64,000 nt of DNA from positions 62,001-126,000 of the forward strand of contig JAUZRQ010000038.1 in NCBI GenBank assembly GCA_030950365.1. Direction: 5' to 3'. How positions within the stretch are numbered: position 1 is the stretch's first letter; each line of letters begins with the position of its first letter. The translations under genes were made by a program, and so were the position numbers. Source of the DNA: Candidatus Zhuqueibacterota bacterium (lineage in GTDB: Bacteria > Zhuqueibacterota > Zhuqueibacteria > Zhuqueibacterales > Geothermadaptataceae). The notes below the pieces were generated by a model. That model ran no database searches and was not told the origin of the DNA. It was given only the letters and a program-made list of their open reading frames with translations. Below are positions 18,067 to 51,575 of this stretch, in pieces.

Positions 18067-18996
18067 ATGACCATCATGAGGACCTGCCGTCTTTTCTGCC
18101 TGTGCACGCTGATCCTGTTTGTTGTCCATAGCGCCCCGGCGCAGCCGCTGACCCTGCGTCTATCCCAAACCCTCCAATTGTCTCTGCCGCAAGATCAACC
18201 CAAAAGCAAATTTGTCCGACTGTCAGTGAGCCAGCAGGGTGAAGTGTATGTGCTGGATCAGGGGCTGAACCGCATTTTGCTGTTTGATGCGACGGGCGCG
18301 CTGCAGCGCGAGGTCGGCGGCTTTGGATGGGAAACCGAGCAGTTCGATCAGCCAATGGATATCTGGGCGGAAAACTCGCTGGATGTGTTCGTGGCCGATT
18401 ACAACAACAACCGCATCCAGCGTTTCGACCGTAAGCTCAATTTCGTGGGCGTGTATGAAAACGACGACGGACTGGATCAGCGGCTGCAATTCGGGCTGCC
18501 GGTGGCGGTGACGTTCTCCCGCTTTGGGGAGCTGTTTGTGATCGATGGCGAAAACCAGCGCATCCTGCGGTTCAACGCTAACGGCGAACCCGAGCAGAGT
18601 TTCGGCGATTGGGACTGGGGCGACGGCCGGCTCGAGGAGCCGGTGGCCATTTGCCTCAACGACAGGGATGACGTGCTGGTGGCCGATACGGGGCTCCGGG
18701 GCATCATGCGGTTTGATTATTACGGCAATTTTTTGCAGCCCATCCGCCACGATTCCCTGACTTCGCCAGTGCAGGTGGTTTCCCTGCGCAACCTAACCAT
18801 TGCGCTGGATGGGGCCCGCAGCCGGCTGTTTATTTTCAATGCCGATGGCCGCTACCGGGTGGACCTGGCGCCGGTGCCGACCGAAACCGACAGGACCAGC
18901 GCCGGTCCATTCAGTCTGGCCGTCAGCCGCAACCTTCTCTACATCCTCGACGGCCGCAACAGGAATGTGTACTGCTACCAGCTCCAAACCCCATGA
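18067..18996 (+). CDS. Exported NHL-repeat beta-propeller protein
   Basis: A 309-residue secreted or periplasmic propeller. The N-terminal signal peptide ends near APAQ (about residue 26). At least four NHL-type blades follow, for example GEVYVLDQGLNRILLFDATG, LDVFVADYNNNRIQRFDRKL, GELFVIDGENQRILRFNANG and DDVLVADTGLRGIMRFDYYG, with a possible fifth and sixth further on. No catalytic motif is seen, so a binding or scaffold role is likely. Its stop codon overlaps the start of the 1149-residue protein by 4 bp (ATGA), so the two are translationally coupled and probably act together at the envelope. Exact partner unknown. Confidence 0.8.
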   Translation: MTIMRTCRLFCLCTLILFVVHSAPAQPLTLRLSQTLQLSLPQDQPKSKFVRLSVSQQGEVYVLDQGLNRILLFDATGALQREVGGFGWETEQFDQPMDIWAENSLDVFVADYNNNRIQRFDRKLNFVGVYENDDGLDQRLQFGLPVAVTFSRFGELFVIDGENQRILRFNANGEPEQSFGDWDWGDGRLEEPVAICLNDRDDVLVADTGLRGIMRFDYYGNFLQPIRHDSLTSPVQVVSLRNLTIALDGARSRLFIFNADGRYRVDLAPVPTETDRTSAGPFSLAVSRNLLYILDGRNRNVYCYQLQTP

Positions 18997-21900
18997 TCCG
19001 CTGCGTGTCAAAACATCGCTCCAGCCCCTGGCTTTTGCCAATGGTTTTGCTCCTGTTGACGGTCGATCTCCACAGCCAGGTTCGCGTTTCATCCGAGCCG
19101 CTGCCGCTGGCTCCGGCCTTGCGCCGGGCGGTCCTGGTGCCGGATTCTTCGCAAACCGTCTTTTTGCTGCCAGATAGCCTCATCATCGCCCTGAGCGACA
19201 GCCTGACGTATGGCCGCCGCCCTCTCCGGCGCCATCGCGATTACCGCCTGGATTATTCGTCCGCAACGGTGACGCTGCAGTTCCGGCCAAACGGCGTCGA
19301 TACCCTGCGCCTGTGCTATCGCGTCCTGCCGGTGTCCATCCCTAAGTGGGTGGCGAGGCGGCGCCTTCAGGCCGCGCCGCAGGACAGTCAGGCGGCATCC
19401 TCCGGCGCGCAACTGGCCACGCGCATCCAGCCGCAGGGGCGCGATCGTCAGGAGCAGGCGTTCGGCGCGCAACTCCGAAAAAGCGGCAGCCTGGTGCGGG
19501 GCGTTTCCATCGGCACCGGCCAGGGACTGAAGGTCGATTCCGGCCTGCGGTTGCAGATCTCCGGCAAAATTTCCGACGATGTCGAAGTCATCGCCGCGCT
19601 CACGGATCAAAATCTGCCCATTCAGCCCGAAGGCAACACCCAGACGTTGCAGGAAATCGACAAGGTGTTCATCCGGCTCAAGGGGCGGCAGTTCGGCGCA
19701 ACCCTCGGCGATTATGAGCTGCAATTCAGCGGCACCGAATTTGCGCGCTATCAGCGCAAATTGCAGGGCGCCATGGCCACGCTCGCGCGCGGCAACAGCC
19801 GGGTGGCCGTGTTCGGCGCGGTGAGCAAGGGCAAATTCCGCACGCAGCAATTCATGGGCGTGGAAGGCAAACAGGGGCCGTATCAGCTCACTGGCGATCG
19901 CGGCCAGATCGACATCATTGTGTTGGCCGGCACCGAGCGCGTGTGGGTGGACGGCGAGCTGATGGTGCGCGGCGAGAACAACGATTACGTGATCGAGTAC
20001 GCCAACGGGCAGATCACTTTCACCCGTCGCCGGCTGATCACCGCTGATTCGCGCATCACCGTGGATTTCCAGTATTCGGACGAGCGATTTCAGCGCAATC
20101 TGTTCGGCGCCGAGACGAGCGTGGCGGCCGCAGGGGATCGCCTGCGCATCACCACCACGCTGCTGCGCGAGAGCGACGACAAAAACAATCCGCTGTCGCT
20201 GCCGCTGAAAGCTGAATTCCTGCGCGCGCTGGAAAACGCCGGCGACAGCCTCGCCACCGTGGATGGCGCTACGTACGTCGGGCCGGGCCGTGGACGTTAC
20301 ATCAAGCAGGATTCCATTTTTGTTTATGTCGGGCCGGATTCGGGCGATTATCAGGTGCGGTTTTCGGATGTCGGCGAGGGCCGCGGCAGTTACCGGTTTT
20401 CCGGATTTGGCAATTTCACCTATGTGGGACCGGGACAGGGCCGCTACGAGCCGGTGGTGCTGCTGCCGCGGGCACAGAGCCATTCGCTGGCCGATCTGCG
20501 GCTCGAATACCAGCCGGCCGAAGGCGTGCAACTGGTGAGCGAGTTCGCCCTCAGCCGCTTCGACCGCAACACTTACAGTCCGCTGCACGATGACGACAAC
20601 CAGGGACAGGCCTATCTGGTGGAACTTCGCTTCCATCCCGAGCGCTGGCGCCTTGGTTCGCTCAACCTCGGCCGCGGTGATGTCCGCATTCGCCACCGGC
20701 TGCGCAACGCCACATTTCGCGACATCGACCGCATCAATGTGGTGGAATACGGCCGTCGCTGGGACATCGGGCAGAACCGCGCCATCGGCCGGGAGGCCGT
20801 CACTGAAGCGCAGGTGAATTACGAACCCTGGAGGCAGATGCGATTTTTCGGCGAAATCGGTTTGCTGGACCTGCAGGCGCGCGACCTGTCCTCCGCGCGC
20901 TGGCAAATCGGCACCACCTGGCAGCGGCCGGATTTACTGGAGCTGAATTACCGGCTGGAGAAAATCCGTCGAAAAACCGCGGGGACGGATGCGCCGGGCT
21001 ACTGGTTGCGGCAAAAAGGCGAGGTCTCGCGCCGTATTGGCTTCTTGCGGCCCATGTTCCGGTTCGAAAGCGAGGCTAAGCGAGAGCCGCTGGCCGATTC
21101 GTTGCAGAGCGGCTTCCGGTTCACGGACTGGTCGGCGGGCCTCGGACTCGCCGGACAGAAACGCCTGGAGATAGAAGTGCAATACGGCCCGCGCATTGAT
21201 GACGACCGCTTCGGACAGCGGTTGCGCCGCAAAAGTCTGGCGCGCACGTTCTCGGCCAGACTCGGCGTGCGCCGCTGGCACAATCTGGTGGCAAGCGCCA
21301 GTTTCATCCACCGCCGCCGTGATTACGCCGATCCGCAAAACGCCGATAGCCGCACCGACCTGGCCGAGCTGCGGCTTGGCTATACCGCCTGGAAGCGCTC
21401 GATGCAACTGGACACCGACTATCAGATTTCCAGCACGCAGGTCAACCGGCTGCAGCGGATGTTTTTCAAAGTACGCGAAGGCGAGGGCAACTATCGCTAC
21501 GATGCAGACCTCAATGAGTACATTCAGGACCCATTCGGCGATTACATTTTGCGGCTGATCCCGACCAATGAATTTTTGCCGGTGGTGGAGCTGCGAAGCC
21601 GGCTGCAATTGCGGCTGCGACCGGAATATGCGTTGCGCCGGAAAAAGCGCCTGTCGAAGTGGCAAAAGGTGCTCAAAGCGCTGTCGTCGGAAACCGTGCT
21701 GCGGATTGACGAAAAGACGCAAAATCCAGCCCTGAGCGAGATTTACCGCCTGAATCTGTCCGAATTTCAACGGCCCGAGTACACGCTGTTCGGCAACATC
21801 AGTTTGCGACAGGATGTGTATGTGTTTCAGAACCGGCGCAGTTTCTCGCTGCGGTACCGTGTCCTTTCGGCGCGCAGCCTCAACAACCAGTTTCTGGAAG

Positions 21901-22442
21901 GCGGGCAGACGCGCGATTTCTTGCAACACGCGCTGCGGATTAACGTCGCGCTGACCCAAAAGCTCAATGGTCGACTCGAAATCTCGAGGACGCGGGAAGA
22001 TAAATTGTTCGATATTCCCGGACGGCAGGATCGGCGCATCCGCGGAGTGCAGGTCGAAACTGACCTTTCCTACCGGCCGCAGTCGCGTTGGGAAATCGCC
22101 GGTCGGATCATCTTTGGCCGCGACCGCGATCTGGCCTTTTCGCCTGCGACGCAAGTGACGCAGTTTTCGTTCAAGCCGCGCACCACCTACTCGTTCCGCA
22201 GCAGAGGTCGGCTACGGGCTGAACTGGAATGGACGCATGTGACCGCATCGCCGGCCGGCAGGGTGATCCCGTATGAACTGGCGCAGGGCAACCGGCAGGG
22301 CAACACCCTGCGCTGGAATTTCCGGTTCGAGTACCGCGTGTCCAGCAACCTGAACGCTTCAGTGAGTTATCAGGGCCGTGACGAACCGGACCGGCCCAAA
22401 ACTCTGCATCTGGCCAAGGTGGAGATGCGGGCATTTTTCTGA
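18993..22442 (+). CDS. Large outer-membrane-type protein of unknown function
   Basis: 1149 residues with a signal peptide (likely cut after LHSQ, residue 29). I do not recognise a characterised family. Parts in order: a beta-rich region (about 45-115); a conserved-looking block at about 168-265 (RGVSIGTGQGLKVDSGLRLQ..., ALTDQNLPIQPEGNTQTLQE, KVFIRLKG); a segment ERVWVDGELMVRG...DYVIEYANGQITF (about 315-345) like the extension modules of some FCB surface proteins; four VGxGxGxY-type units at about 424-490; then about 650 residues of Arg- and aromatic-rich alternating strands ending in Phe-Phe, as outer-membrane barrels do. It lies between an NHL propeller (4-bp overlap) and an Omp85 protein. 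A distant link to SprA-like translocon proteins is possible but unproven. Confidence 0.7.
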   Translation: MIRCVSKHRSSPWLLPMVLLLLTVDLHSQVRVSSEPLPLAPALRRAVLVPDSSQTVFLLPDSLIIALSDSLTYGRRPLRRHRDYRLDYSSATVTLQFRPNGVDTLRLCYRVLPVSIPKWVARRRLQAAPQDSQAASSGAQLATRIQPQGRDRQEQAFGAQLRKSGSLVRGVSIGTGQGLKVDSGLRLQISGKISDDVEVIAALTDQNLPIQPEGNTQTLQEIDKVFIRLKGRQFGATLGDYELQFSGTEFARYQRKLQGAMATLARGNSRVAVFGAVSKGKFRTQQFMGVEGKQGPYQLTGDRGQIDIIVLAGTERVWVDGELMVRGENNDYVIEYANGQITFTRRRLITADSRITVDFQYSDERFQRNLFGAETSVAAAGDRLRITTTLLRESDDKNNPLSLPLKAEFLRALENAGDSLATVDGATYVGPGRGRYIKQDSIFVYVGPDSGDYQVRFSDVGEGRGSYRFSGFGNFTYVGPGQGRYEPVVLLPRAQSHSLADLRLEYQPAEGVQLVSEFALSRFDRNTYSPLHDDDNQGQAYLVELRFHPERWRLGSLNLGRGDVRIRHRLRNATFRDIDRINVVEYGRRWDIGQNRAIGREAVTEAQVNYEPWRQMRFFGEIGLLDLQARDLSSARWQIGTTWQRPDLLELNYRLEKIRRKTAGTDAPGYWLRQKGEVSRRIGFLRPMFRFESEAKREPLADSLQSGFRFTDWSAGLGLAGQKRLEIEVQYGPRIDDDRFGQRLRRKSLARTFSARLGVRRWHNLVASASFIHRRRDYADPQNADSRTDLAELRLGYTAWKRSMQLDTDYQISSTQVNRLQRMFFKVREGEGNYRYDADLNEYIQDPFGDYILRLIPTNEFLPVVELRSRLQLRLRPEYALRRKKRLSKWQKVLKALSSETVLRIDEKTQNPALSEIYRLNLSEFQRPEYTLFGNISLRQDVYVFQNRRSFSLRYRVLSARSLNNQFLEGGQTRDFLQHALRINVALTQKLNGRLEISRTREDKLFDIPGRQDRRIRGVQVETDLSYRPQSRWEIAGRIIFGRDRDLAFSPATQVTQFSFKPRTTYSFRSRGRLRAELEWTHVTASPAGRVIPYELAQGNRQGNTLRWNFRFEYRVSSNLNASVSYQGRDEPDRPKTLHLAKVEMRAFF
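20263..20465 (+). repeat. Internal VGxGxGxY coding repeat
   Basis: Within the 1149-residue protein the stretch encodes YVGPGRGRY, YVGPDSGDY, VGEGRGSY and YVGPGQGRY in about 65 residues. Each unit is separated by a short strand-like segment. Confidence 0.75.
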
Positions 22443-22496
22443 GGTTGGACATAAAGCCGATGCTTCTGCATAATCACAAGCGGATGCAAACGATAG

Positions 22497-22537
22497 AACA
22501 CGGATGACACGGATAACGAGGATTTACACGGATTACC
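22497..22537 (+). repeat. CACGGATT-family dispersed repeat, copy 5
   Basis: AACACGGATGACACGGATAA then CGAGGATTTACACGGATTA, between the large outer-membrane protein gene and the Omp85 gene. Confidence 0.65.
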
Positions 22538-22629
22538 ATTAATGGGTAATCCCCGCCCTTGTTGGCGGGTCTCCCTTGCATAAAGTCGATGATTTAATAA
22601 ACAATACACAGTGAATCGAGCCTATTCCG

Positions 22630-24378
22630 GTGAAAAAAATACTGACCAAAATCGCGGCCATTTTGCTAATCGGGCTGCTGCTCGGTTTGCCAGCGCAGGC
22701 GCAGTCGCCACCGGAAAACAGCGCGCGTCCGGCGTGGGCGGATTCCGTGGTGATCCGCACCGCTGGTGAGGTGAAACCGGAGCGCATCACAAAGGCGTTA
22801 AGCCGGCAGCGGCTGCTCTGGCGCGTAGGTATTACGCCTGAGTCGGTGACGACGGCCGTGCTGGGCTGGCTCCTGAAGCACGGATACTGGAACGCCCGCA
22901 TTGCGAAGGTGGACATCCGGCAACACCCCCGTCCGCATTTGTGGCTGGTGGTCGAGGAAGGCCGCCGGGCGCGCGGTGGTGTGCTGCGTTTCCGCAGCGA
23001 TGCCAATGTCGAAATACCAATGACGCAGGTGCGGATTCGGGACTTTGCAGCCGTTGACTCTCAGGTGGATGCGCTCCTCAAACAATTCGGCGAGGCAGGC
23101 TATCCTTTTGCCCGCGCCACGCTCGATTCCATTCTGGTTTTGCCGGCCCATGGCCGCGGGGCCTCGTACGAGTTGGTCTATCGCATCGAGCCCGGCAGCC
23201 GGGTGATCATCGATAGCATTCGCATTGTCGGCAACAGCCTCACGCGCCGCGAAGTCATTCTGCGTGAGCTGCCCGTCAAACCCGGCATGGTGTACCGCGA
23301 ATCGCTCATCGAAGCGATTCCACAGCGGCTGTGGTCGCTGCGATTTTTGCGTGTGATGAACGAACCCCGGCTGTATGTGACGCCGCAGCAAACCGGTATT
23401 CTGGAAATTACCGTGCAGGAAGGACGGAGCAATTTTTTCAACGGCGTGCTGGGATACAATCCGGGCACCGGAACACAGCCTGGTTTCCTGTCCGGGTTGA
23501 TCGATATCGAATTTGCCAACCTGCTGGGCACTGGCCGGGAGATCCGCGCGCGCTGGGAAAAACGCGGCCCTAAAACCCAGGATCTGTCGCTGTTTTTTCG
23601 CGAGCCATGGGTGTTCGGCAAGCCCTTTCATCTGGAAGGTGGCTTCCAGCAACTGATTCAGGACACCTCGTACGTGCGGCGTAGCTGGCAGTTCAAGGTC
23701 GAGTGGCCGTTCCTCGAAGGCATGCGGCTGGTGACGCAACTTTCACGCAGCGCCGTGCTGCCGGATTCGGTAGGACTGGCGCTGGGCATCCCGCCAAGCC
23801 AGGCCACCTCTGCCGGCTTCGGCATCGAATACACCTCGCTGGATGAACCGGTCAACCCCACACGCGGCGCGCGGTTCTCGACCCTGCTTGAAACCATCGC
23901 CAAGCGGCTGGATGACGCGGAACAGGGACAGGGGGATTTTCGCCAGAAGCGCTTGCTGGTGGACGCATCCTGGAATTTGTCCCTGTGGCGCTGGCAGGTG
24001 GTGCATGTGGGGCTGCACTGGCGGCACATCACCACCAGCGAGCCTTTCGTTTCGATCACCGATCAGTTCCGGTTTGGCGGTGCCACCACGCTTCGCGGCT
24101 ATCGCGAGGAGCAATTCCGCGGCTCGCGCGTGGCCTGGGCCACGGTGGAATACCGCTACCTGCTGGGACAGCGCAGCCGGGCGTTTTTATTCTACGATCT
24201 CGGCTATTTCTCGCGCCGCGACCCAAAAGCAGGACTCATTCAGAGCGTCAAACAGAGCTTCGGTTTTGGCGTGCGGCTGGAAACGCGCATCGGGCTGATA
24301 GGCATCGATTACGGCCTCGGTGAAGGCGATACCATCTTGCAGGGCAAGGTGCATCTGAGTTTGATCAATACATTTTGA
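22630..24378 (+). CDS. Omp85-superfamily outer membrane protein (BamA/TamA-like)
   Basis: A 582-residue barrel protein of the type that inserts or exports proteins at the outer membrane. It has a signal peptide (ending at PAQAQ, residue 25). About two POTRA-like modules lie in residues 30-270, one of them clear in the segment RVIIDSIRIVGNSLTRREVI...LPVKPGMVYRESLI. A surface-antigen/D15 barrel follows, with the family hallmark FRFGGATTLRGYREEQ (the FGG...RGY motif) near residue 480. It ends in Phe. It is shorter than BamA (about 800), so it is an accessory member. The start is GTG with a weak ribosome-binding site. Neighbours suggest a dedicated assembly role for the 1149-residue protein; that is inference. 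Confidence 0.88.
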   Translation: MKKILTKIAAILLIGLLLGLPAQAQSPPENSARPAWADSVVIRTAGEVKPERITKALSRQRLLWRVGITPESVTTAVLGWLLKHGYWNARIAKVDIRQHPRPHLWLVVEEGRRARGGVLRFRSDANVEIPMTQVRIRDFAAVDSQVDALLKQFGEAGYPFARATLDSILVLPAHGRGASYELVYRIEPGSRVIIDSIRIVGNSLTRREVILRELPVKPGMVYRESLIEAIPQRLWSLRFLRVMNEPRLYVTPQQTGILEITVQEGRSNFFNGVLGYNPGTGTQPGFLSGLIDIEFANLLGTGREIRARWEKRGPKTQDLSLFFREPWVFGKPFHLEGGFQQLIQDTSYVRRSWQFKVEWPFLEGMRLVTQLSRSAVLPDSVGLALGIPPSQATSAGFGIEYTSLDEPVNPTRGARFSTLLETIAKRLDDAEQGQGDFRQKRLLVDASWNLSLWRWQVVHVGLHWRHITTSEPFVSITDQFRFGGATTLRGYREEQFRGSRVAWATVEYRYLLGQRSRAFLFYDLGYFSRRDPKAGLIQSVKQSFGFGVRLETRIGLIGIDYGLGEGDTILQGKVHLSLINTF

Positions 24379-25805: not shown

Positions 25806-27602
25806 CTATGCCGCCGCTTCGGCTTCGGCATAGAGCGCCTCGATTTTGTCTTTGTACCGTTCGGTGATGACCTTGCGTTTCAGCTTCAGCGTCGGGGTGA
25901 GCTCGCCGGAATCGATGCTGAAATCTTCGGGCAGGATATAGAACTTTTTGATGGTCTCGAACGAGGCCAGTTGTTTGTTGCGCTCCTCGACCTCCTGCTC
26001 GATCAGCTCCCGCACCTTCGGATGTTGCGTCAATTGCTCCCACGAGCTGTACTCGAGGCCCTCTTTGGTAGCCCAGGCTTCTACCTGCGGTTGATCCAAT
26101 GTGATCAACGCCACCAAAAACTTCTTTTGATCGCCATAAGCCACCACCTGGCTAATATACCTCGACGTACGGATGATGCGCTCCACCCGCTGCGGCGCGA
26201 TGTTTTTGCCGCCAGCGGTGATGATCAGGTCTTTTTTGCGGTCGGTGACGCGCAGGAAGTTGTCCTCATCGATCTCGCCGATATCACCAGTGTATAGCCA
26301 ACCATCTTTATCGATTGTTTCCTGAGTGGCTTCAGGGTTTTTGTAGTAGCCTTTCATCACGTTGGGGCCGCGGAACAGAATTTCACCATCGTCGGCGATT
26401 TTCTGTTCGATTCCTGGCCCAGGTGGCCCTACCGTGCCGAATTTGTAGTGATCGAACCGGTTCACGTTGGTGAACGACGTGTTTTCGGTCATACCGAGGC
26501 CTTCCAGAATGAGAATACCGCAGGCATGGAAAAAGCGCGCGATGGTGACGTTGAGCGGCGCCGCGCCGGAAATGGTGAACACCACCCGGCCGCCAAGGGC
26601 TTCGCGGATTTTGTGAAACACCAGCCTGTCGGCCAGTTTGTACTTCATGGCCAGGCCCGCCGGCACCGGCTGCCGCTTTTCCTTGAGCTCGCTAACCCGG
26701 GTGCCAACTTCAAGCGCCCAGTTGAATAGCTTCTGCTTGACGCCGCCGGCATCGGCGACCTGCGAGGTGATGCGCTCGTACACTTTTTCATAAATGCGCG
26801 GCACGCTGGCGAAAAAGTGGGGCCGGACCTCGCGCAAATTCTCGGCCACTTTTTCGAGGCTTTCCGCAAAAGCCAGGGTGAAACCAGCCCGCATGGACGT
26901 GAACACGATGATGCGCGCGAACACGTGTGCCAGCGGCAAAAATAGTAGGGTTTCATAATGTTCCTTGATGTGCAGGCATTCTAACACCGACTGTGAGGTA
27001 AACAAGAAATTGCCATGTGTGAGCATGGCGCCTTTGGGCACGCCGGTGGTGCCAGATGTGTAAACGATCGAGGCGAGGTCGTCGCGTTCCACCGCTTCGG
27101 TGCGCTGGGCAAATTCGTCATCGGATACCCCATCGCCGCGCGAAAGAAACTCGTCCCAAGTGAGCACACCTTCCGGCAGACTGGCCGGCGCATCGTAAAT
27201 GACGATGTGTTTTAGCTTTTGCAATTGCTGCCGCACCGACAGGATTTTCTCCAGTTGCTCCTGGTTTTCCACCATGAGCAGCACCGCCTCGCTGTGGTTG
27301 ATGATGTACGCACAATCGTCCGCAAGATTAGATGGGTAAATGCCCACCGTAACCGAGCCGATATTTTCAGCGGCGAAGTCGCACTGCACCCATTCCAGCC
27401 GGGTCTGGCTCAAAATGTTGACTTTATCCCCCTTTTGAACGCCGAGAGCCATGAGGCTCTTGGAAATGCGCTTGCACGCGTCAAAATGCTCCTGCCAGGT
27501 TAATGAATGCCACTGCCCGTCCTTTTTGAATTTGTAAGCCACGCGATCGGGATGCGTATCGCACAGCTTTTTGAATAGCTGAAAAATGTTTTTTTCTTCC
27601 AT
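25806..27602 (-). CDS. Long-chain acyl-CoA synthetase (AMP-dependent synthetase), copy 2
   Basis: ANL-superfamily adenylating enzyme, 598 residues, similar to FadD15-type long-chain fatty-acid CoA ligases. The P-loop-like IVYTSGTTGVPKGAMLTHGN, the core GLGMTENTSFTNVNRF, and the hinge YTGDIGEIDEDNFLRVTDRKKDLIITAGGKNIAPQ with catalytic-lysine context are all present. ATG 27602 has GGAGGGA upstream; the GTG four codons earlier would place that site inside the gene. It is a close tandem paralogue of the next gene (much of the sequence is identical) and lies 32 bp behind it. It should activate fatty acids to acyl-CoA at the membrane. Chain-length preference is unknown. Confidence 0.92.
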   Translation of the reverse strand: MEEKNIFQLFKKLCDTHPDRVAYKFKKDGQWHSLTWQEHFDACKRISKSLMALGVQKGDKVNILSQTRLEWVQCDFAAENIGSVTVGIYPSNLADDCAYIINHSEAVLLMVENQEQLEKILSVRQQLQKLKHIVIYDAPASLPEGVLTWDEFLSRGDGVSDDEFAQRTEAVERDDLASIVYTSGTTGVPKGAMLTHGNFLFTSQSVLECLHIKEHYETLLFLPLAHVFARIIVFTSMRAGFTLAFAESLEKVAENLREVRPHFFASVPRIYEKVYERITSQVADAGGVKQKLFNWALEVGTRVSELKEKRQPVPAGLAMKYKLADRLVFHKIREALGGRVVFTISGAAPLNVTIARFFHACGILILEGLGMTENTSFTNVNRFDHYKFGTVGPPGPGIEQKIADDGEILFRGPNVMKGYYKNPEATQETIDKDGWLYTGDIGEIDEDNFLRVTDRKKDLIITAGGKNIAPQRVERIIRTSRYISQVVAYGDQKKFLVALITLDQPQVEAWATKEGLEYSSWEQLTQHPKVRELIEQEVEERNKQLASFETIKKFYILPEDFSIDSGELTPTLKLKRKVITERYKDKIEALYAEAEAAA

Positions 27603-27634
27603 ATCTCCCTCCACAGCCGTTTAGGACGCTTTTC

Positions 27635-29419
27635 TTAGTCTGCCTCGTAGAGTGCTTCCAGTTCCTTGCGGAAACGTTCAGTTACCAGCTTGCGTTTTAC
27701 TTTCAGCGTGGGGGTCAATTCACCGCCCTCAATGGAGAAGTCCCTCGACACAATAAAGAATTTCTTGATGGTTTCGAACGAGGCCAGGTGCTTGTTTTGC
27801 TCTTCGATTTCGCGGGCGATGAGCTCGCGCACTTTGGGATGCTGCGCCAGCTCTTCCCAAGAATTGTACTGGACCCCCTGCTCGGTCGCCCAGGCCTCCA
27901 CCTGCTCCTGATCCAGGGTGATCAGCGCCACCAGGTATTTCTTGCGATCGCCGTAGGCCATGCACTGGCTGATGTAGCGCGACGAGGCGATGATTTTTTC
28001 CACATGTTGCGGCGCAATGTTCTTGCCGCCGGCGGTGATGATCAGGTCCTTCTTGCGATCGGTGATGCGCAGAAAACCGTCTTCATCGATTTCGCCCACG
28101 TCGCCGGTGTACAGCCAGCCGTCCTTGTCGATGGTCTCTTTGGTGGCTTCGGGATTCTTGTAATAGCCTTTCATCACGTTTTTGCCGCGAAACAGAATCT
28201 CGCCGTCTGGCGCGATTTTCTGTTCGATCTCGGGGCCAGGTGGGCCAACAGTGCCGAATTTGTAGTTGTCGTAACGGTTCACATTGGTGAACGAGGTGTT
28301 TTCGGTCATGCCGATGCCTTCGAGGATCAGGATACCGCAGGCATGGAAGAATTTAGCCACGTCCACATTCAGCGGCGCGGCGCCGGAAACCGTCCAGACG
28401 ATCCGCCCACCCAGGGCCGCCTGGATTTTGCCAAATACCAGCCTTGTGGCCAGTTTGTATTTGAACACCAGTCCGCCGGGAATGGACTGCTTTTTCTGCT
28501 TCAATTCGCTCACCTGATAGCCCACCCCGAGCGCCCAGTTGAATAGCCTGGCTTTCAGCCCGCCGGCATCTTCCACGCCCTGGGTGATTTTTTCGTACAC
28601 TTTTTCATAAATGCGCGGTACGCTGGCAAAGAAGTGCGGCCGGGTTTCTTTGAGATTGTCCGCCACTTTTTCGATGCTTTCTGCAATGTTGATGGTGAGC
28701 GCATTGCGCATGCAGAAATGCACGATCAGTCGCGCAAACACGTGCGCCAGCGGCAGGAACAGCAATGTCTCGAATTCCGGTTTTAGATAAAGAGACTCGG
28801 CCGCCGACCACGAGGTGAACACAAAATTGCCGTGCGTCAGCATCGCCCCTTTGGGCACACCGGTGGTGCCGGAAGTGTACACGATCGCCGCCAGATCGTC
28901 GCGCTGGATGTTGTTGGCGCGTTCCTCGAATTCCTCGTCCGAAATGGCGCTGCCTTTTTGCAGGAACTCCTGCCAGCTCATCACCCCGTTGTCTGCCTTG
29001 CCGCTGCCATCAAAGATCACGATGTGTTTCAATTGTTTTAGCTTGTCACGTTCGGTGAGCACTTTTTGCAACTGCTCGTCGTTTTCCACGAAAATCAATA
29101 CGCCGTCGCTGTGGTTGATGATGTAAGCAGCCTCATCGGGCAGCAGGGTCGGATAAATGCCCACCGTGGTGGCGCCGGCGCCAATAATGCCGAAATCGCA
29201 CTGAATCCATTCCAGCCGGGTTTGGCTCAAAATATTGACCTTATCCCCCTTTTGAACGCCGAGAGCCATCAGGCTTTTCGAGATGCTTTTGCAGGTCTCC
29301 TGATGCTCCCGCCACGTCACCTCGATCCAGCGGTCGTCTTTTTTGTAGCGAAAGGCAATCTTATCCGAATTTTTCTCACAAACATCTCGAAAAAGATGGT
29401 ACACAGATTGTTCATTCAT
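27635..29419 (-). CDS. Long-chain acyl-CoA synthetase (AMP-dependent synthetase), copy 1
   Basis: 594 residues with the same motif set as copy 2: IVYTSGTTGVPKGAMLTHGNFVFTS, EGIGMTENTSFTNVNRYDNYKFGTVGPPGPEIEQKI, and YTGDVGEIDEDGFLRITDRKKDLIITAGGKNIAPQ. The two differ mainly in the N-terminal substrate-pocket half, which would fit different acyl preferences. The start overlaps the end of the upstream unknown gene by 8 bp (ATGAATGA), with GGAGAGG as ribosome-binding site, suggesting coupled translation. Confidence 0.92.
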   Translation of the reverse strand: MNEQSVYHLFRDVCEKNSDKIAFRYKKDDRWIEVTWREHQETCKSISKSLMALGVQKGDKVNILSQTRLEWIQCDFGIIGAGATTVGIYPTLLPDEAAYIINHSDGVLIFVENDEQLQKVLTERDKLKQLKHIVIFDGSGKADNGVMSWQEFLQKGSAISDEEFEERANNIQRDDLAAIVYTSGTTGVPKGAMLTHGNFVFTSWSAAESLYLKPEFETLLFLPLAHVFARLIVHFCMRNALTINIAESIEKVADNLKETRPHFFASVPRIYEKVYEKITQGVEDAGGLKARLFNWALGVGYQVSELKQKKQSIPGGLVFKYKLATRLVFGKIQAALGGRIVWTVSGAAPLNVDVAKFFHACGILILEGIGMTENTSFTNVNRYDNYKFGTVGPPGPEIEQKIAPDGEILFRGKNVMKGYYKNPEATKETIDKDGWLYTGDVGEIDEDGFLRITDRKKDLIITAGGKNIAPQHVEKIIASSRYISQCMAYGDRKKYLVALITLDQEQVEAWATEQGVQYNSWEELAQHPKVRELIAREIEEQNKHLASFETIKKFFIVSRDFSIEGGELTPTLKVKRKLVTERFRKELEALYEAD

Positions 29420-37070: not shown

Positions 37071-37162
37071 TGCCACCTCCATGCAAGCCACCTTAACCGT
37101 TGCATCCATTGAGGACCAGTTGTCATAAACCCTACCCAATTCATAAATCAATGGAGGGATAT

Positions 37163-39949
37163 ATGTTTAAAAAAGTGCTTATCCTTTTTAGTTTCCTTGT
37201 TTTCGTCGTAACCGGAGCCTTTGCCGGCACCACAGGCAAAATCTCCGGTACGGTCGTTGATAAGGAAACCGGAGAGCCCCTGCCCGGCGTGAATATCGTC
37301 ATCGAGGGGACGACCATGGGCGCGGCAACGGATAACAACGGCGCATACTATATCCTGAATGTCCCGCCGGGAACCTATTCCGTTGTCGCATCGATGATTG
37401 GATACCAGAAGGAGAAGGTAACCGGAGTACGGGTGAGTGCGGACTTGACCACCGAGGTGAACTTCCGGCTCTCGAGCACGGTCGTGGAGTTGGGGGAAGC
37501 GGTGACGGTGGTGGCGGAGCGTCCGCTGATTCAGAAGGACATGACGGCCTCGCAGTCCCTTGTCGGTGCCGAGGAAATCGATAATACGGCTGTGAACTCG
37601 TTCGAGTCGGTGATGATCGCGATGCCGGGATTTGTGGTGGCCGGCGGCAGCGAAGGCGGAACGGTGTCGGTGGCTGAGGGCGGCGGCATCCACGTGCGCG
37701 GCGGCCGCGGCGGCCAGCTCGGTTTTATGATCGACGGTTTTTATGTGGAAGACGCTCTGTACGGCGGCATCGGCTCGGATGTGACGCGCGACGGCATCCA
37801 GGAACTGTCGGTGATCACCGGCACGTTCAACGCGGAATACGGCGAGGCGCTGTCGGGCGTGGTCAACATCGTGACCAAAGAGGGCGGCAGCAAGCTGGAA
37901 GGCAAGCTGCGGTTCGCCACCGACGAGTTGATGATCGGCAAGCTGGGAGATATTAAGGAAAACAACTGGCGTACGACCCGTATGGAAGCGTCCATTGGCG
38001 GTCCCGTGCCGGGCACCAACAACAAGGTGCGGTTCTTTTTCTCCGGCGACCGCAATTACACCAACACCTACCTGAATATCACCAAACACGTGGTGCGTCA
38101 GGATGTGGAGCATTTCACCATCCCTGATTCGATCGTCGACATTTTCGTGGATGAGAATAATTTTGTGCAAACGCCGACGCCGGACAACATCGCCTCGCTT
38201 CGCAAGCAGAAGCAGGTTGCCGGCGCAGAGCATTACCACAATAACAATACCTTCAACCGGCGCTGGCGCGGTACCGGAAAGATCACCATCACGCCCAACG
38301 CCAACATGAAGCTGATTCTGGGCTTCACCGGAACCAGGCAGGAATACAAAAACTACAGCCAGGCATTCAAACCGAATCCCGATCGGGCAGGATGGACGAA
38401 AGCGGATAACTTGATGACCAACTTCACCTGGAACCATACCCTGAGCCCGAGCACGTTTTACACCCTTCGCGGTGCAGTCTTTACCATCTGGAATCGTTTC
38501 GGCCGGTTTAAACCGCATGATCAGATCGTGCAACCATTGCGATCCGGCCCGTTTAGCAATTTCCCATTTGCCGCTTTTGGTGGGCAATCCAACTACGAAT
38601 TTCTGGGCGCCTATCCCGATCCCACCGGAGCCACGGTTGTGATTAATGGCGATACGCTGCGGGCACCGGCCTATTCAGAAGAGAACGACGATCAAAACTA
38701 TCGTTCACAGACCATTACATTCAATTTTGATGTTACTTCTCAGATATCGAGGTACCATCAAATCAAAACGGGTTTTGAATTCAAGCAATTGGATCTGCGA
38801 AACCACATTATCAATGGCATCAAAACCTCAAATGATACCACCCTTTATCGGTTCAAACCGATCCAGTTGGCAGCCTACATTCAGGATAAGATCGAATTCA
38901 AAGATATGGTCATCAATATCGGACTGCGCTGGGATTACCTGGATCCGAAATCGCCCTACGTGGCCACGACCAACGATCTGACCCGCCAATCAGGCCGGGT
39001 GGAGCAGGCGAAAAAGAAGATTCACCTAAGTCCACGTCTTGGATTCGGTTATCCAATTACGGATAGGGCGGTATTGCATTTTGCTTATGGTATGTTTACT
39101 CAGAATCCAGACTACAATTTCTTTTACCGCGGGATTTATCGCGATAGCCCGCTGTATCCGTTTCCGGACATTGCCGAGCACTTCATCGTGGGCAACGCCA
39201 ACCTGAAACCGGAGCGCACCACGGCGTATGAAATCGGCACGGAACTCCTACTGTCTGACGACATCGCCATGGATGTGACTCTGTTCTATAAGGACATTTA
39301 CGATTACGTGTCCACGAAATACTTCCCGTTTGCGCAGCCGCAGGATTACTTTACGTTCGTGAACGAAGATTACGCGAACGCCCGCGGCATTGAAATCAGC
39401 ATCGAAAAACGGTTCAGCAATTACTTTTCGGCCCGCATCAATTACACCTATTCGCGCGCCGAAGGTAACTCGCAAAGCGAGTTCACGCATTTCAACGAAT
39501 ACATCAATGCTTCGGTGCTGCAGGAAGTCCCGCCGAAGAAGACCATCACCCTGGCGTGGGATCAGCCGCACACACTCAATTTCATCATTGACGTTCGCAA
39601 ACCCAACGACTGGGGACTCAATATTTACGGTCGTTTCGGTAGCGGCTTGCCTTATACCCCCACGGATGGCCGAGGCCGTTTGACGGATGAGCGCAACAGC
39701 GCCCGCCTGCCCTGGAATGGCACCATCGATGTTCGCCTGAACAAAGACTTCAACTTTATGGGATTGCGGGAGCGCATTTTTGTGGATATCACCAACCTGT
39801 TCAATAAGCGCAACGTGTTTAGCGTGTTTTCCTCAACCGGAAGTCCGACCTTTGACCTGATCCCCGGCCGATCCGAAGAATTTATGGATCGACCACATTG
39901 GTTCGGGCCTCCACGGCATATAGAAGCAGGCATTCAGATCGTATTCTGA
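37163..39949 (+). CDS. TonB-dependent outer membrane receptor with carboxypeptidase-like N-domain
   Basis: 928 residues from ATG 37163, which has GGAGGGA upstream; an in-frame extension to 37100 is not credible. Signal peptide 1-22. Residues 23-110 form a carboxypeptidase-regulatory-like beta-sandwich (GKISGTVVDKETGEPLPGVNIVIEGT...GAYYILNVPPGTYSVVASMIGYQ). The plug follows (AMPGFVVAGGSEGGTVSVAEGGGIHVRGGR...IQELSVITGTFNAEYGEALSGVVNIVTKEGG). The 22-stranded-type barrel ends in IQIVF with the terminal Phe. This layout resembles SusC-type and FCB importers. It leads an operon with a large secreted protein and a PorV-like protein. Substrate unknown. Confidence 0.92.
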   Translation: MFKKVLILFSFLVFVVTGAFAGTTGKISGTVVDKETGEPLPGVNIVIEGTTMGAATDNNGAYYILNVPPGTYSVVASMIGYQKEKVTGVRVSADLTTEVNFRLSSTVVELGEAVTVVAERPLIQKDMTASQSLVGAEEIDNTAVNSFESVMIAMPGFVVAGGSEGGTVSVAEGGGIHVRGGRGGQLGFMIDGFYVEDALYGGIGSDVTRDGIQELSVITGTFNAEYGEALSGVVNIVTKEGGSKLEGKLRFATDELMIGKLGDIKENNWRTTRMEASIGGPVPGTNNKVRFFFSGDRNYTNTYLNITKHVVRQDVEHFTIPDSIVDIFVDENNFVQTPTPDNIASLRKQKQVAGAEHYHNNNTFNRRWRGTGKITITPNANMKLILGFTGTRQEYKNYSQAFKPNPDRAGWTKADNLMTNFTWNHTLSPSTFYTLRGAVFTIWNRFGRFKPHDQIVQPLRSGPFSNFPFAAFGGQSNYEFLGAYPDPTGATVVINGDTLRAPAYSEENDDQNYRSQTITFNFDVTSQISRYHQIKTGFEFKQLDLRNHIINGIKTSNDTTLYRFKPIQLAAYIQDKIEFKDMVINIGLRWDYLDPKSPYVATTNDLTRQSGRVEQAKKKIHLSPRLGFGYPITDRAVLHFAYGMFTQNPDYNFFYRGIYRDSPLYPFPDIAEHFIVGNANLKPERTTAYEIGTELLLSDDIAMDVTLFYKDIYDYVSTKYFPFAQPQDYFTFVNEDYANARGIEISIEKRFSNYFSARINYTYSRAEGNSQSEFTHFNEYINASVLQEVPPKKTITLAWDQPHTLNFIIDVRKPNDWGLNIYGRFGSGLPYTPTDGRGRLTDERNSARLPWNGTIDVRLNKDFNFMGLRERIFVDITNLFNKRNVFSVFSSTGSPTFDLIPGRSEEFMDRPHWFGPPRHIEAGIQIVF

Positions 39950-40036
39950 TAGGCTGAACCACCCGCTGCAAGGGTGATTCATTCCGCGTTTTCAAACTCA
40001 AGATAGAGCCGGTTCTTTTTGAAACGGAGGGTTAAA

Positions 40037-42952
40037 ATGGCAAAAAGCTGCTCTAAATTATGTCTAATCCTGACACTCACGGTGGGACTGATCCTGCCAC
40101 AGCTACTTCTGGGGCAGGGGAAATATCCCGCCAGGCCGAGTGCCCCGATGGATAAATGGGAATACTACAACACCTACGTGGCTCCGCAAAAAGGCCGAGC
40201 CGCTTTGAGCAAGCCCGGTGCATTTGCCGACCGCAAGCGTAGTGTTTTGGATGTAGGTAACCTGGTGGTCCGGTTCAACAATGCCGGTACCTGGGGCTAT
40301 GACCGCTGGGGCCTCAACCATCAGTGGCCGGCTGGTTCCAAGCTGACCTACTACTGGACCCTGGCACCGATGATCGGTGCGAAAAAGCGCATGCCGGACG
40401 GCTCCCTGAAACCCACCGTGGCCGTGGGCGCTCGCGGGACTGTGCGCGACCATGAAGAAGAATTTCAGCCGCTGCCCGGCTACGACGCGGGCTGGCAGGA
40501 TGACGGTGCGTTCTTCGGTATCGCATTCAGCGATCGGCCCGATACCTGGCCCTCGCTGTGGCCCATCGAGAAGGATCCTGAAGGCAAGTACACCGATCCG
40601 TACACCGGTCAGACGTTTGCCGGCATCGAGCGGCCACTCGACCTGAGCCACCCCGAAGGCAGCGGATTGCGCTTCCCGGGCGTGCTCAACGGCAAGGTCG
40701 TGGCCGACCGCGAAGCCTATGTGGTGATGACCGATAATGATCCGAAAGATGGAAATATCGGTGAATTCAACAACGGCGTTGGTCCGCTGGATGTGCGCGT
40801 GGATGCCTGGGCGCTGCAATGGAGCGATGTGATCAATGAAGATTTCATCATCTGGCGACACATCTTCACCAACGTCGGCAAAGATACCCTGTTCGATGTG
40901 TACGTGGGCATGCACGGCGACCCGGACACCCCCGAGCAGGGAACCTTCGAATGGACCGACGATTTCGCGCTGTTCATTCCGCAGGGCTCGGCCGATTACG
41001 ACTCGCTACTGTGGAACACCGTGCTGGTGTGGGACGGTGACGACAAGTCCGAAGGCTTCATCGCCAGCAACGTGCCGTGGATTGCCATTAAAGTACTGGA
41101 AACCCCGGTGGATGAGACCACCGGCCAGCAAAAGGGCCTGACCACAATGTACCTCTTTTTGTACAGCGAAGACGCCCAGAGCGATGAGCAGGCCTACAAT
41201 GATCAGATGGCGGCAGGTATCGAGCCGCCGGATAATGTGGATCCGCATCCGGATGATTGGACGCAGACGCCAAACAGCTATGGTCCGGATATCACGTTTG
41301 TCTTCGCCTCCGGTCCGTTCACCATGCCGCCGGGCAAAAGTTTGGTATTCACCATTGCCGATATCCTCGGCGCCAACAAGGCGGACGCGCTGAGCAACGC
41401 CGCGCTGGCGCAGGTGCTGTATAACAACGATTACAAGGCTCCCGAGCCGCCGAAAGAACCGAATGTGCGTGCCGTGGCCGGCGATGGCCAGGTGACCCTA
41501 TACTGGGATGCGTTTCCGTCGGAATTCAGCACCGACCGGTTGACCGGCAACAACCGCTTCCAGGGCTACCGCATTTACCGCAGCGATGACCGCGGCGTGA
41601 CCTGGGGCACGCCGATTACGGACGTGAACGGCACCGTGATTGGTTACGTGCCGCTGGCGCAATTTGATCTGGAAGACGGTATTACCGGTGTGGACCCGCT
41701 CGCTCCGGAGCTGTATCTCGGCGATGATACCGGTCTGCAGCACACCTTTGTGGATCGCAACGTCATCAACGGATATGAGTACTGGTATGCCGTGACGGCG
41801 TACGATTCCCGCGATGAGGCCGGTCCGCTGACCATCCGGCCGCTGGAGAATCCGCGCCGGAACAACCCGAACCTGCCCGGAGACAATACCGTGGCAGTGA
41901 TTCCACGACCGAAAGTGGCCGGTTACAAAGACCCGCAGGTGGGCGAAGTGCAGCACACCCAGGGCGTGGCTGATGGCACCGTTGAAGTGGAAATCCTCGA
42001 TCCTGGCCTGGTGACGGGTGATACCTATCGGGTGACGTTTGACGCCAGTACCTCGCCGACCACGGTGATCGTGACCAACACCAAAACCGGCAAAAGCGTG
42101 CAGGGACCGGCTGCCGGACCGAGCGATGTGACGACTGATGGCATTCCGAGCATCGACGGCTTGCGCGTAAAAGCCATCGATACCAGGCGCGGCGTCAAAT
42201 CGACCGCCGGGGCCAGCACCATTGAACTGCGGCGCACCCAATTTGCCAATCGCAGCGGCGCGGGTACGCTTCATGATTTCGAATTCCGGTTTGTCAGCGA
42301 TACCCTGATCTACACGGATTGGGATAACGGCACGCCGGTGAAAGCCACGTTTGAAATCTGGGACCTGACCACGAATACACAAGTTACCGCTGAGATTTTT
42401 GATTCACGTGATGGCGACGGTGACGGTGTCTTCGATTTTGGCGAACGTGTGGCCATCGTCATCTCGCCCTATCAGGGCACCGGCGGCTGGGAAGGCGCCT
42501 GGCCGGATGATTACGGCTTCGTGATCGATTTCACCGACGGTTCGACCGCCAATCCGGGAGACACCTTTACCATCATTTCCAACAAGGTCTTCAATAACGA
42601 TGATCAGTACGAATTCACCACGACCAAAGAAGAGATCGATACTGAGAAGCTGAAACAGGACCTGGCCAATGTGAAGGTCGTTCCCAATCCCTATGTGGTG
42701 TCCTCGGTCTTCGAAACCTCGCTGAGCACCAAGGTGCTGCAATTCCGCAAGCTCCCGCCCGAGTGCACGATCCGGATCTACAACCTGTCCGGTGAATTGA
42801 TCCGCAAGATCGAGCACAACGATGGCACCTCTATCGAAAACTGGAATCTGCGCAGCTACAACGATCAGGAGATTGCGTTCGGGGTGTATATCTATCACAT
42901 CGAAACGCCCTCCGGCGCAGAGACTTTAGGGAAGTTTGCGGTGATTAAATAA
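40037..42952 (+). CDS. Large exported protein with fibronectin-III-like and T9SS-type sorting domains
   Basis: 971 residues from ATG 40037 (GGAGGG upstream); the TTG at 40019 would put that site inside the gene. Signal peptide 1-27 (LLLGQ). An N-terminal beta-rich region of about 470 residues has no family I recognise. A fibronectin-III-like part follows at about 474-600 (PNVRAVAGDGQVTLYWDAFPSE...GYRIYRSDD). A calcium-loop-like DSRDGDGDGVFDFGERV lies near 790-806. The last 95 residues (VKVVPNPYVV...IRIYNLSGELIRKIEHN...WNLRSYNDQEIAFGVYIYHIETPSG...GKFAVIK) match type-A C-terminal sorting domains of type IX secretion. It sits in the place held by SusD-like proteins in Sus operons, but is unrelated to SusD by eye. 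Confidence 0.78.
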   Translation: MAKSCSKLCLILTLTVGLILPQLLLGQGKYPARPSAPMDKWEYYNTYVAPQKGRAALSKPGAFADRKRSVLDVGNLVVRFNNAGTWGYDRWGLNHQWPAGSKLTYYWTLAPMIGAKKRMPDGSLKPTVAVGARGTVRDHEEEFQPLPGYDAGWQDDGAFFGIAFSDRPDTWPSLWPIEKDPEGKYTDPYTGQTFAGIERPLDLSHPEGSGLRFPGVLNGKVVADREAYVVMTDNDPKDGNIGEFNNGVGPLDVRVDAWALQWSDVINEDFIIWRHIFTNVGKDTLFDVYVGMHGDPDTPEQGTFEWTDDFALFIPQGSADYDSLLWNTVLVWDGDDKSEGFIASNVPWIAIKVLETPVDETTGQQKGLTTMYLFLYSEDAQSDEQAYNDQMAAGIEPPDNVDPHPDDWTQTPNSYGPDITFVFASGPFTMPPGKSLVFTIADILGANKADALSNAALAQVLYNNDYKAPEPPKEPNVRAVAGDGQVTLYWDAFPSEFSTDRLTGNNRFQGYRIYRSDDRGVTWGTPITDVNGTVIGYVPLAQFDLEDGITGVDPLAPELYLGDDTGLQHTFVDRNVINGYEYWYAVTAYDSRDEAGPLTIRPLENPRRNNPNLPGDNTVAVIPRPKVAGYKDPQVGEVQHTQGVADGTVEVEILDPGLVTGDTYRVTFDASTSPTTVIVTNTKTGKSVQGPAAGPSDVTTDGIPSIDGLRVKAIDTRRGVKSTAGASTIELRRTQFANRSGAGTLHDFEFRFVSDTLIYTDWDNGTPVKATFEIWDLTTNTQVTAEIFDSRDGDGDGVFDFGERVAIVISPYQGTGGWEGAWPDDYGFVIDFTDGSTANPGDTFTIISNKVFNNDDQYEFTTTKEEIDTEKLKQDLANVKVVPNPYVVSSVFETSLSTKVLQFRKLPPECTIRIYNLSGELIRKIEHNDGTSIENWNLRSYNDQEIAFGVYIYHIETPSGAETLGKFAVIK

Positions 42953-42991
42953 TCTGGCTATTGGGTAGATCGAATTCTGGAGGTTCAAACG

Positions 42992-44056
42992 ATGAAAAAA
43001 CTGGCAATAATCATATGTCTTTTGGGCATGTTCAGCTACTCGGCAGGCTATGCCCAATTCGACAATGTGGGCACCTCCGCAGCAAACTTTTTAAAGATTG
43101 GTGTGGGTAGCCGCGCTGAGGCCATGGCAGGGGCCTACGTGGCGCAGGTCGCAGATGTAACTGCGCTGCACTGGAACCCAGCTGGCCTGGCGAGGATGCA
43201 GAACCGGGAGGTCGCCATTGCCCGCACTGACTGGGTGCTGGATATCAATCACGTGTTCGTGGGAGCCGCGCTGCCACTGGGCGATGTCGGCACCCTGGGC
43301 GTGAGCGTGTATTCGCTGACCATGGGTGATATGGAAATGACCACAGCCCAACAGCCCGATGGCACGGGCGTGATGTTTGGGGCCAGCAACTTCGCCATCG
43401 GCCTCGCCTACGCCCGCGCGCTGACCGACCGGTTCTCCGTGGGAATACAGGGGAAATACATACGTGAAAATATATCCTCAGCATCGGCCAATGCGTTTGC
43501 TCTGGATATTGGTTCGCAGTACCGCACCAATTTCCGCGGTCTCACCATCGGTATGTCCATCGCCAATTTCGGTACCAACATGACCCTTTCCGGGCGGGAG
43601 CAACTCGTACGTGTGGATATCGATCCGACACTTGGCGCCAACCCGGATGCCACACCAGCCCGTCTGGAAACGGAAGCATGGCCGCTGCCGCTGATTTTCC
43701 GTATTGGCGTGTCCATGGAGGTGTTTAATAGCGGCGATAATAAAATCACCGCCAATGTGGATTATACCGATCCGCGTGACGTGAATCCGTGGACGTCATT
43801 TGGCGTAGAGTACAGCCTCAAAAATATGGTGTATTTGCGGGGTGGCTGGCGTTCGCTGCTCACGGCCATGGGGCTGTTTACCAATGAAAAGCTGGAAGCC
43901 GAAGAAGCCAATCCGGAACAGAGCTTCTTTACCTTTGGCGGTGGCCTGTATCTGAAATATCCGGGTAAAGATTACAGCTTGCGCATCGATTATGCCTATT
44001 CCGATCTTGGCCGCCTGACCCAGGCCCACCGCTTTTCCGTTGCGTTCGAATTCTGA
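42992..44056 (+). CDS. PorV/PorQ-family outer membrane protein
   Basis: 354 residues, signal peptide (ending GYAQF, about 22), then the family start NVGTSAANFLKIGVGSRAEAMAGAYVAQVADVTALHWNPAGLARM. A beta-barrel follows, ending HRFSVAFEF with terminal Phe. In Bacteroidota PorV (LptO) shuttles type IX cargo from the SprA translocon to the attachment complex; close relatives in other FCB phyla are common but untested. It is third in the operon, 39 bp behind the protein carrying a sorting domain, which fits a cargo-handling role. GGAGGTT precedes the ATG. Confidence 0.88.
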   Translation: MKKLAIIICLLGMFSYSAGYAQFDNVGTSAANFLKIGVGSRAEAMAGAYVAQVADVTALHWNPAGLARMQNREVAIARTDWVLDINHVFVGAALPLGDVGTLGVSVYSLTMGDMEMTTAQQPDGTGVMFGASNFAIGLAYARALTDRFSVGIQGKYIRENISSASANAFALDIGSQYRTNFRGLTIGMSIANFGTNMTLSGREQLVRVDIDPTLGANPDATPARLETEAWPLPLIFRIGVSMEVFNSGDNKITANVDYTDPRDVNPWTSFGVEYSLKNMVYLRGGWRSLLTAMGLFTNEKLEAEEANPEQSFFTFGGGLYLKYPGKDYSLRIDYAYSDLGRLTQAHRFSVAFEF

Positions 44057-44111: not shown

Positions 44112-44415
44112 GTTGGTGCAGAAGAGAACGGCCATCCGCCGGCCGGTCTTTTGCAAGCTGGAAGGACCTCGCAAACGGGATAACGCCTGTAACTGTTCAG
44201 CATGTACGGAAGATTGTTGGAATCCGGCTTTTTCGCTCCCCTCCCGGGAGGGGACGTTGAACGGCCCATGCGGGCTCTCAATGAAACAATATCCTCAATT
44301 TGTCGCCATTCGGTGAAGGTGGAATGGCGACAAAAAGCAGACAATGGACATCACGAGATTATTGGTGTGGTCGAATAATTTCAAAGCCATTCACCGTAAG
44401 TCTTCTGGGATGGTC
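44112..44415. other. Intergenic stretch with a dispersed 13-mer
   Basis: Holds GTAACTGTTCAGC (44189-44201), one base from the 17551 motif, and a CCCCTCCCGGGAGGGG palindrome near 44237. No gene supported. Confidence 0.5.
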
Positions 44416-51217: not shown

Positions 51218-51575
51218 ATTCAGGCCTTTGCGTTTGAGGAAGCGGGGTTCATACCTTTCATGCTGCAATATAGATTCGTCCGCAGTGCAATGCAACATGG
51301 ATTGGATGAATGACATGAAAACAAACGACTGGATCAATCCATGGTGATGATTCCCAGGTTGCCAATCAGCCCGTCATCCAATATTATCAAGAAAAACAAA
51401 GAAGTGGAGCCCTGCCAGCGTTAAATGATCCGATTGATCACCACCTGCATATTTTTCATGAATATGGCTTGATTTTTGTTCATTATCTGATTAAGTTTGA
51501 CTTTCGAAAAAATGAATCCATCCCAATGACGTGGACCATCCGGTCCAAATGGTGACATAAGCAAGAGCAGGCATT
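51218..51575. other. Divergent intergenic region
   Basis: 358 bp holding only small inverted repeats (ATGGATTG/CAATCCAT near 51297-51345; GGACC/GGTCC near 51532-51545, close to the rseP start). No clear promoter. Confidence 0.45.

Follow-up and report, generated by a model that had tools for sequence, protein, structure and literature searches.

The window analysed here is the whole stretch of 64,000 nucleotides from a KSB1-type genome, and the genes under study follow one another on its forward strand (Table 1). They encode, in this order, an NHL-type beta-propeller protein, a large protein that we name BIG, and a TamA-like Omp85 protein. A sequence-only reading had proposed that the propeller gene overlaps the large gene by 4 bp and that an Omp85 gene follows on the same strand, and the open reading frames bear this out (overlap at 18993-18996). 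Upstream of this cassette in the window are rplM, rpsI, rpsB, tsf, pyrH and frr (names read off the sequences), and the rplM-to-frr run before the cassette is retained in about 10 relatives. Two similar long-chain acyl-CoA synthetase-like genes, recognised by sequence inspection, stand in tandem on the reverse strand (25806-27614 and 27635-29419). At 37100-44056, three consecutive genes encode a TonB-type receptor that bears a carboxypeptidase-regulatory domain, a protein whose T9SS-type sorting tail is weak, and a PorV-like protein; the sorting-domain gene (at 40019) and the PorV-like gene (at 42992) are both real and lie some 16-19 kb from the cassette. Two convergent genes (44344-47745 on the forward strand, 48260-51337 on the reverse strand) code for very large proteins in which a major-facilitator-like membrane part is fused to a spermidine-synthase-like domain and to TPR repeats.

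Table 1. Features of the three-gene cassette (window coordinates) and of an additional gene found between BIG and Omp85 in four other genomes (coordinates of their own records).
Feature	Position	Strand	Remarks
NHL-type beta-propeller protein	18067..18996	+	309 aa; leading gene of the cassette; N-terminus signal peptide I-like
BIG	18993..22442	+	1149 aa; candidate giant outer-membrane barrel
Barrel-forming region of BIG	19470..22436	+	residues 160-1148; AlphaFold2 secondary structure; conserved terminal Phe
SprA-like domain of BIG	19914..20168	+	residues 308-392
Glycine-tyrosine block of BIG	20253..20465	+	residues 421-491; YVGxGxGxY units; motif listing across the family
TamA-like Omp85 protein	22630..24378	+	582 aa; GTG start; signal peptide I-like
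Three POTRA domains of Omp85 protein	22747..23424	+	residues 40-265; AlphaFold2 secondary structure
16-strand barrel of Omp85 protein	23434..24372	+	conserved GGAxxLRGYRE motif; invariant columns
Ig-repeat protein	L205:11317-14844; L206:7110-10637; L207:10287-13808; L208:7032-10562

BIG has no Pfam match at a useful E-value, no Pfam or NCBIfam family covers the protein, and searches against PDB sequences, with the single sequence or with a profile, returned no match. The features first attributed to the large protein were borne out, namely the signal peptide (here a hydrophobic helix at the N-terminus), the ALTDQNLPIQPEGNTQ block, which falls inside residues 201-350, where conservation within the family is highest, the glycine-tyrosine units, a barrel-like region, and a C-terminal phenylalanine that is conserved across the family. 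The AlphaFold2 model (72 homologues; mean pLDDT 85.2, pTM 0.72) contains about 36-38 long antiparallel strands over residues 160-1148, with two small domains inserted in the barrel (about residues 300-360 and 421-491), the second of which is modelled as short strands. The initial description of BIG as a surface protein was thus understated, as predicted membrane barrel makes up about 85% of it. The number of strands puts BIG in the size class of SprA, and BIG is very probably a large membrane barrel. Foldseek comparison with viral models gave generic barrel or fibre matches only.

A relation to the SprA translocon had been thought conceivable. It proves real but distant, and BIG is not SprA itself, because the true SprA is encoded on another contig of the same genome. 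Profile-profile comparison (hhalign) aligns BIG residues 308-392 to SprA 636-719 (probability 89.9, E 1.7e-6), and a search of NCBIfam matches residues 310-394 weakly to positions 604-687 of TIGR04189 (E 5.3e-4); both BIG (17.3 bits) and a Bacteroidota BIG (27.4 bits) score below the curated equivalog cut-off of 200 bits. In addition, the N-terminal segment of BIG is weakly collinear with the N-terminus of SprA, scoring 28.8 where the highest of 60 column permutations scored 21.9; this score also exceeds those of all other SprA windows and of Omp85 windows. From the domain match and the collinear N-terminal match we conclude that the two proteins are distantly related, and we are fairly confident that BIG is a remote homologue of SprA. 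The secure part spans about 85 residues, the remainder of the barrel showing no detectable sequence homology to SprA, so that a relationship across the whole barrel is our inference. When the model was searched against the PDB with Foldseek, SprA structures ranked 1, 2, 4 and 5 (E 1.8e-10 to 1.5e-8); their TM-scores were low (0.24-0.28), and many other barrels matched as well, LptD among them. Pfam shows no OstA/LptD domain in BIG. The BIG family also has weak matches, below cut-offs, to the phage distal tail protein TIGR02217/DUF2460 at residues ~310-390, and a small beta domain common to the latter and the SprA-like region is possible.

SprA has been described as a pore of 36 strands that is capped on the outside and has a lateral opening for PorV (PMC10994853). 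BIG resembles this T9SS translocon (SprA/Sov; TIGR04189; PDB 6h3i, 6h3j, 8gl6, 8gl8) in its predicted giant single-chain, many-stranded barrel, in the domain and N-terminal segment described above and in its top fold matches. It differs in length, its 1149 residues being about half of the ~2060-2400 or more of SprA, and in being a separate gene, linked to Omp85 and propeller genes and lost independently of SprA. We found no paper naming or describing a SprA paralogue.

In the Omp85 protein, Pfam recognises PF01103 (1.8e-19) and one POTRA domain, and the AlphaFold2 model (pLDDT 89.6) has three POTRA domains and sixteen strands; positions 30-274 of the Omp85 profile align to the POTRA domains of BamA. 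The best PDB fold match is Pseudomonas aeruginosa TamA (8.3e-27). The resemblance to proteobacterial TamA extends to a length of ~580 aa, to three POTRA domains with a 16-strand barrel and to an N-terminus of signal peptidase I type by motif, but the gene has no adjacent tamB and its inheritance tracks BIG. TamB, a 1426-aa open reading frame, is found on contig C37, where it adjoins a 776-aa BamA-type gene, and there is no TamB neighbour at the cassette locus. TamL of Bacteroidota carries a lipoprotein signal, whereas a lipobox is missing here: among 40 named and 30 Bacteroidota orthologues of the Omp85 protein none has a real lipobox motif, the one match, inside a hydrophobic stretch, being spurious.

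A closer counterpart is Fjoh_0402 of Flavobacterium johnsoniae, described by Giovannercole et al. (PMC12045153) as a protein of signal peptidase I type with three POTRA domains and 16 strands, encoded without a TamB neighbour and deletable without growth defect. According to the same description, depletion of TamL was needed for the protein to be seen in membranes, and 11 of the 30 Bacteroidota species surveyed have a homologue, whereas all have TamB. TamB therefore does not depend on TamA. Compared by description, the two proteins share architecture, absence of a TamB neighbour and a patchy distribution in Bacteroidota, from which orthology can be inferred; the Omp85 protein is thus probably of the same family as this orphan TamA homologue. 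The part of the paper available to us mentions no link to BIG. The system had been put forward as undescribed, which seems right for BIG and for the set as a whole, but the Omp85 component has probably already been listed, as Fjoh_0402.

Of 79 relatives within the phylum, 69 have BIG, as do 47 of the 49 that are near-complete, normally as one full-length copy each. A neighbourhood survey in relatives had been set beforehand as a test of the gene set, and the three genes do adjoin: the propeller lies immediately upstream of BIG at 38 of 40 loci and the Omp85 gene immediately downstream at 32 of 40 (some loci without an adjacent gene end too early to show one), usually with less than 100 bases between genes. 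This arrangement is far beyond chance. The other outcome named in advance as counting against the set was a match of the large protein to a characterised unrelated family, and it has none. In one genome (G049; L050:6648-10051), BIG is split over two reading frames next to intact Omp85 and propeller genes, through either an assembly error or a pseudogene.

By the records that carry names, the window falls within candidate division KSB1 (L100 is 81% identical), and the best 80 of 424 BIG matches include records named Calditrichota, LCP-89, Zixibacteria, Ignavibacteria, Chlorobi and Chloroherpetonaceae/Thermochlorobacter, among others. No BIG homologue was found on plasmids. At many loci outside the phylum the Omp85 gene is not adjacent to BIG. 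Linked or not, an Omp85 orthologue was recovered from all 12 genomes tested outside the phylum (458-614 bits, against at most 142 bits for the next-best Omp85 paralogue in the same genomes). Other genes are found beside BIG in some lineages. The loci of four genomes (L205-L208) have, between BIG and Omp85, a gene for a secreted Ig-repeat protein of about 1175 aa, whose start is divergent from that of the Omp85 gene; the protein carries He_PIG, Big_9 and cadherin-like repeats (domains from L205), is 54-80% identical among the four genomes, and may possibly be a cargo of the system. An amino-acid-kinase gene adjoins BIG at L217:6862-8115 (417 aa; domain from L217), genes of 417-419 aa hold the same position in flavobacteria-like genomes (L216 and L218-L220), and this neighbour yielded no functional clue in the flavobacteria-like genomes.

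A sample of 296 genomes was spread evenly over the phylum to which the Thermochlorobacter record belongs (Bacteroidota, broadly taken). BIG matches were obtained in 182 of them, or 174 (~59%) after exclusion of eight weak ones (E ~8e-4 to 5e-5), which are probable SprA-domain matches. With the Omp85 profile at E 1e-60, 129 genomes were positive, every one of them with BIG (129/129) and none BIG-negative; 122 genomes have neither protein and 45 have BIG without Omp85 at this threshold. A wider Omp85 profile (A6) was run on 40 of these 45 genomes and on 40 BIG-negative, SprA-positive ones. It recovered an Omp85 protein of 537-656 aa in 36 of the 40 BIG-only genomes, plus a partial copy (G354) and a small fragment (G365) that lie at contig edges (in total ~38 of 40), and gave BamA-sized matches, and no such Omp85, in BIG-positive G108 and G163. 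No such Omp85 was found with this profile in the 40 BIG-negative, SprA-positive genomes, where the best matches reach at most 153 bits and are all BamA-sized proteins. In most of these Bacteroidota genomes BIG and Omp85 are unlinked, the exceptions being G091, G096, G101 and G106, where both lie within about 10 kb. Their co-occurrence is therefore not a by-product of linkage.

We also mapped BIG on a SprA tree of 60 SprA-positive genomes (30 with and 30 without BIG), which includes some long branches (that of G120 foremost). Nine changes of BIG state are required, all forced by well supported branches. In the nine corresponding independent pairs, Omp85 tracks BIG in 9/9 cases (sign test, p 0.0039), in a test that omits seven rows lacking an Omp85 result and on rows that were picked by BIG state and do not include the known exceptions G108 and G163. 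SprA is retained in all 60 rows, so BIG and Omp85 come and go as a unit, apart from T9SS.

The propeller, in which Pfam detects NHL repeats (PF01436, 4.1e-14), has a more restricted distribution. Orthologues (84-260 bits, open reading frames of ~275-360 aa) were found in 23 of 40 BIG-positive Bacteroidota genomes, and no NHL match exceeded 73 bits in 40 BIG-negative ones. In G098, a weaker match (62 bits) lies directly beside BIG and upstream of it, as in KSB1. This adjacency and the confinement of orthologues to BIG-positive genomes among those tested indicate that the propeller belongs to the set. It is lost or unrecognisable in flavobacteria-like lineages and, since 17 of the 40 BIG-positive genomes give no match of at least 84 bits, may be dispensable. 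The conserved unit of three genes that had been proposed has thus held up, with gene order kept in relatives and with BIG and Omp85 inherited together even when unlinked, over nine independent contrasts, and we have very little doubt that the set is real and co-inherited.

On balance, we slightly favour the reading of this cassette as a three-part outer-membrane machine comprising a SprA-type BIG pore, a dedicated TamA-like partner and a propeller partner. BIG would be a second SprA-type giant barrel that may close into a very wide, 36-strand pore and from which most of SprA's extracellular cap insertions would be missing. The TamA-like Omp85 has no TamB paired with it here and would serve BIG specifically, presumably by acting on it; the likeliest role is that of a dedicated insertase, a standing partner being a further possibility. 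The one-to-one inheritance of the two proteins is compatible with an insertase dedicated to its client as well as with a standing complex, and it is reasonably likely that Omp85 acts specifically on or with BIG. On the simplest reading of its signal peptide I-like N-terminus, the propeller would be an exported soluble partner, putatively a gate, or an adaptor for cargo, at one of the mouths of the pore. The cargo moved may be protein, as opposed to lipid or glycan; that BIG is a protein translocon is a serious possibility, which we hold tentatively.

The kinship with SprA suggests another reading, in which BIG would be an accessory T9SS translocon that might, for instance, take the place of SprA for some substrates, and Omp85 would serve solely to insert it. 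The two proteins share the SprA domain, PorV-like and sorting-domain genes lie 16-19 kb from the cassette, and SprA accompanies BIG in 173 of 174 BIG-positive Bacteroidota genomes and in 40/40 tested relatives. Yet 54 of the 227 Bacteroidota genomes with SprA lack BIG, which is therefore not a T9SS component present wherever T9SS is, and one genome (G358) has BIG without SprA. As BIG and Omp85 also change jointly in nine independent contrasts against a constant SprA, and as no T9SS gene recurs as a neighbour among the loci inspected, we consider this reading unlikely. Equally unlikely, in our estimate, is a machine moving lipids, LPS or surface glycan, or maintaining outer-membrane homeostasis, instead of exporting protein. 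TamA-class proteins are tied to lipid homeostasis, the F. johnsoniae homologue is reported in membranes only upon TamL depletion (PMC12045153), and LptD barrels also match the BIG model; against this, both the nearest fold and the sole sequence homology of BIG are with a protein translocon, SprA, and TamB is encoded elsewhere, next to a BamA-type gene. TamB is a known periplasmic bridge.

Its presence in the genome, the TamA-like architecture and the TamA fold match would also suit an ordinary TamA working with TamB, for which BIG would be one of many clients or a mere neighbour. We regard this as distinctly improbable, since the coupling observed is to BIG (129/129 genomes and 9/9 contrasts) and since TamB, in the published survey, is universal among Bacteroidota that mostly lack TamA (11/30; PMC12045153). 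The encoding of a large protein beside an Omp85-class transporter gene further recalls two-partner secretion of the FhaC/FhaB type, with BIG as the exported substrate. Such systems pair a TpsB transporter bearing two POTRA domains with a beta-helical TpsA bearing a TPS domain. The Omp85 protein has three POTRA domains, and BIG is itself a predicted barrel with a terminal Phe and matches neither haemagglutination nor TPS domains, so that this last reading is very improbable indeed.

At its most far-reaching, the cassette may represent an unrecognised outer-membrane translocation system of the Bacteroidota-KSB1-Calditrichota assemblage, with a second giant pore of SprA type, a TamA-type insertase, a propeller adaptor and its own cargo independent of T9SS, a proposal that we make still more tentatively than that of protein translocation by BIG. 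Should BIG be a distant and widespread relative of SprA, giant pores would constitute a class. The pairing with Omp85 bears on how barrels this large are inserted, and the orphan TamA of Bacteroidota, whose deletion had no effect on growth and which was then set aside (PMC12045153), gains in BIG a partner that can be tested. Finally, BIG is widespread, occurring in more than half of the sampled Bacteroidota and in nearly all KSB1-type genomes, yet it has so far stood outside the Pfam and NCBIfam families.
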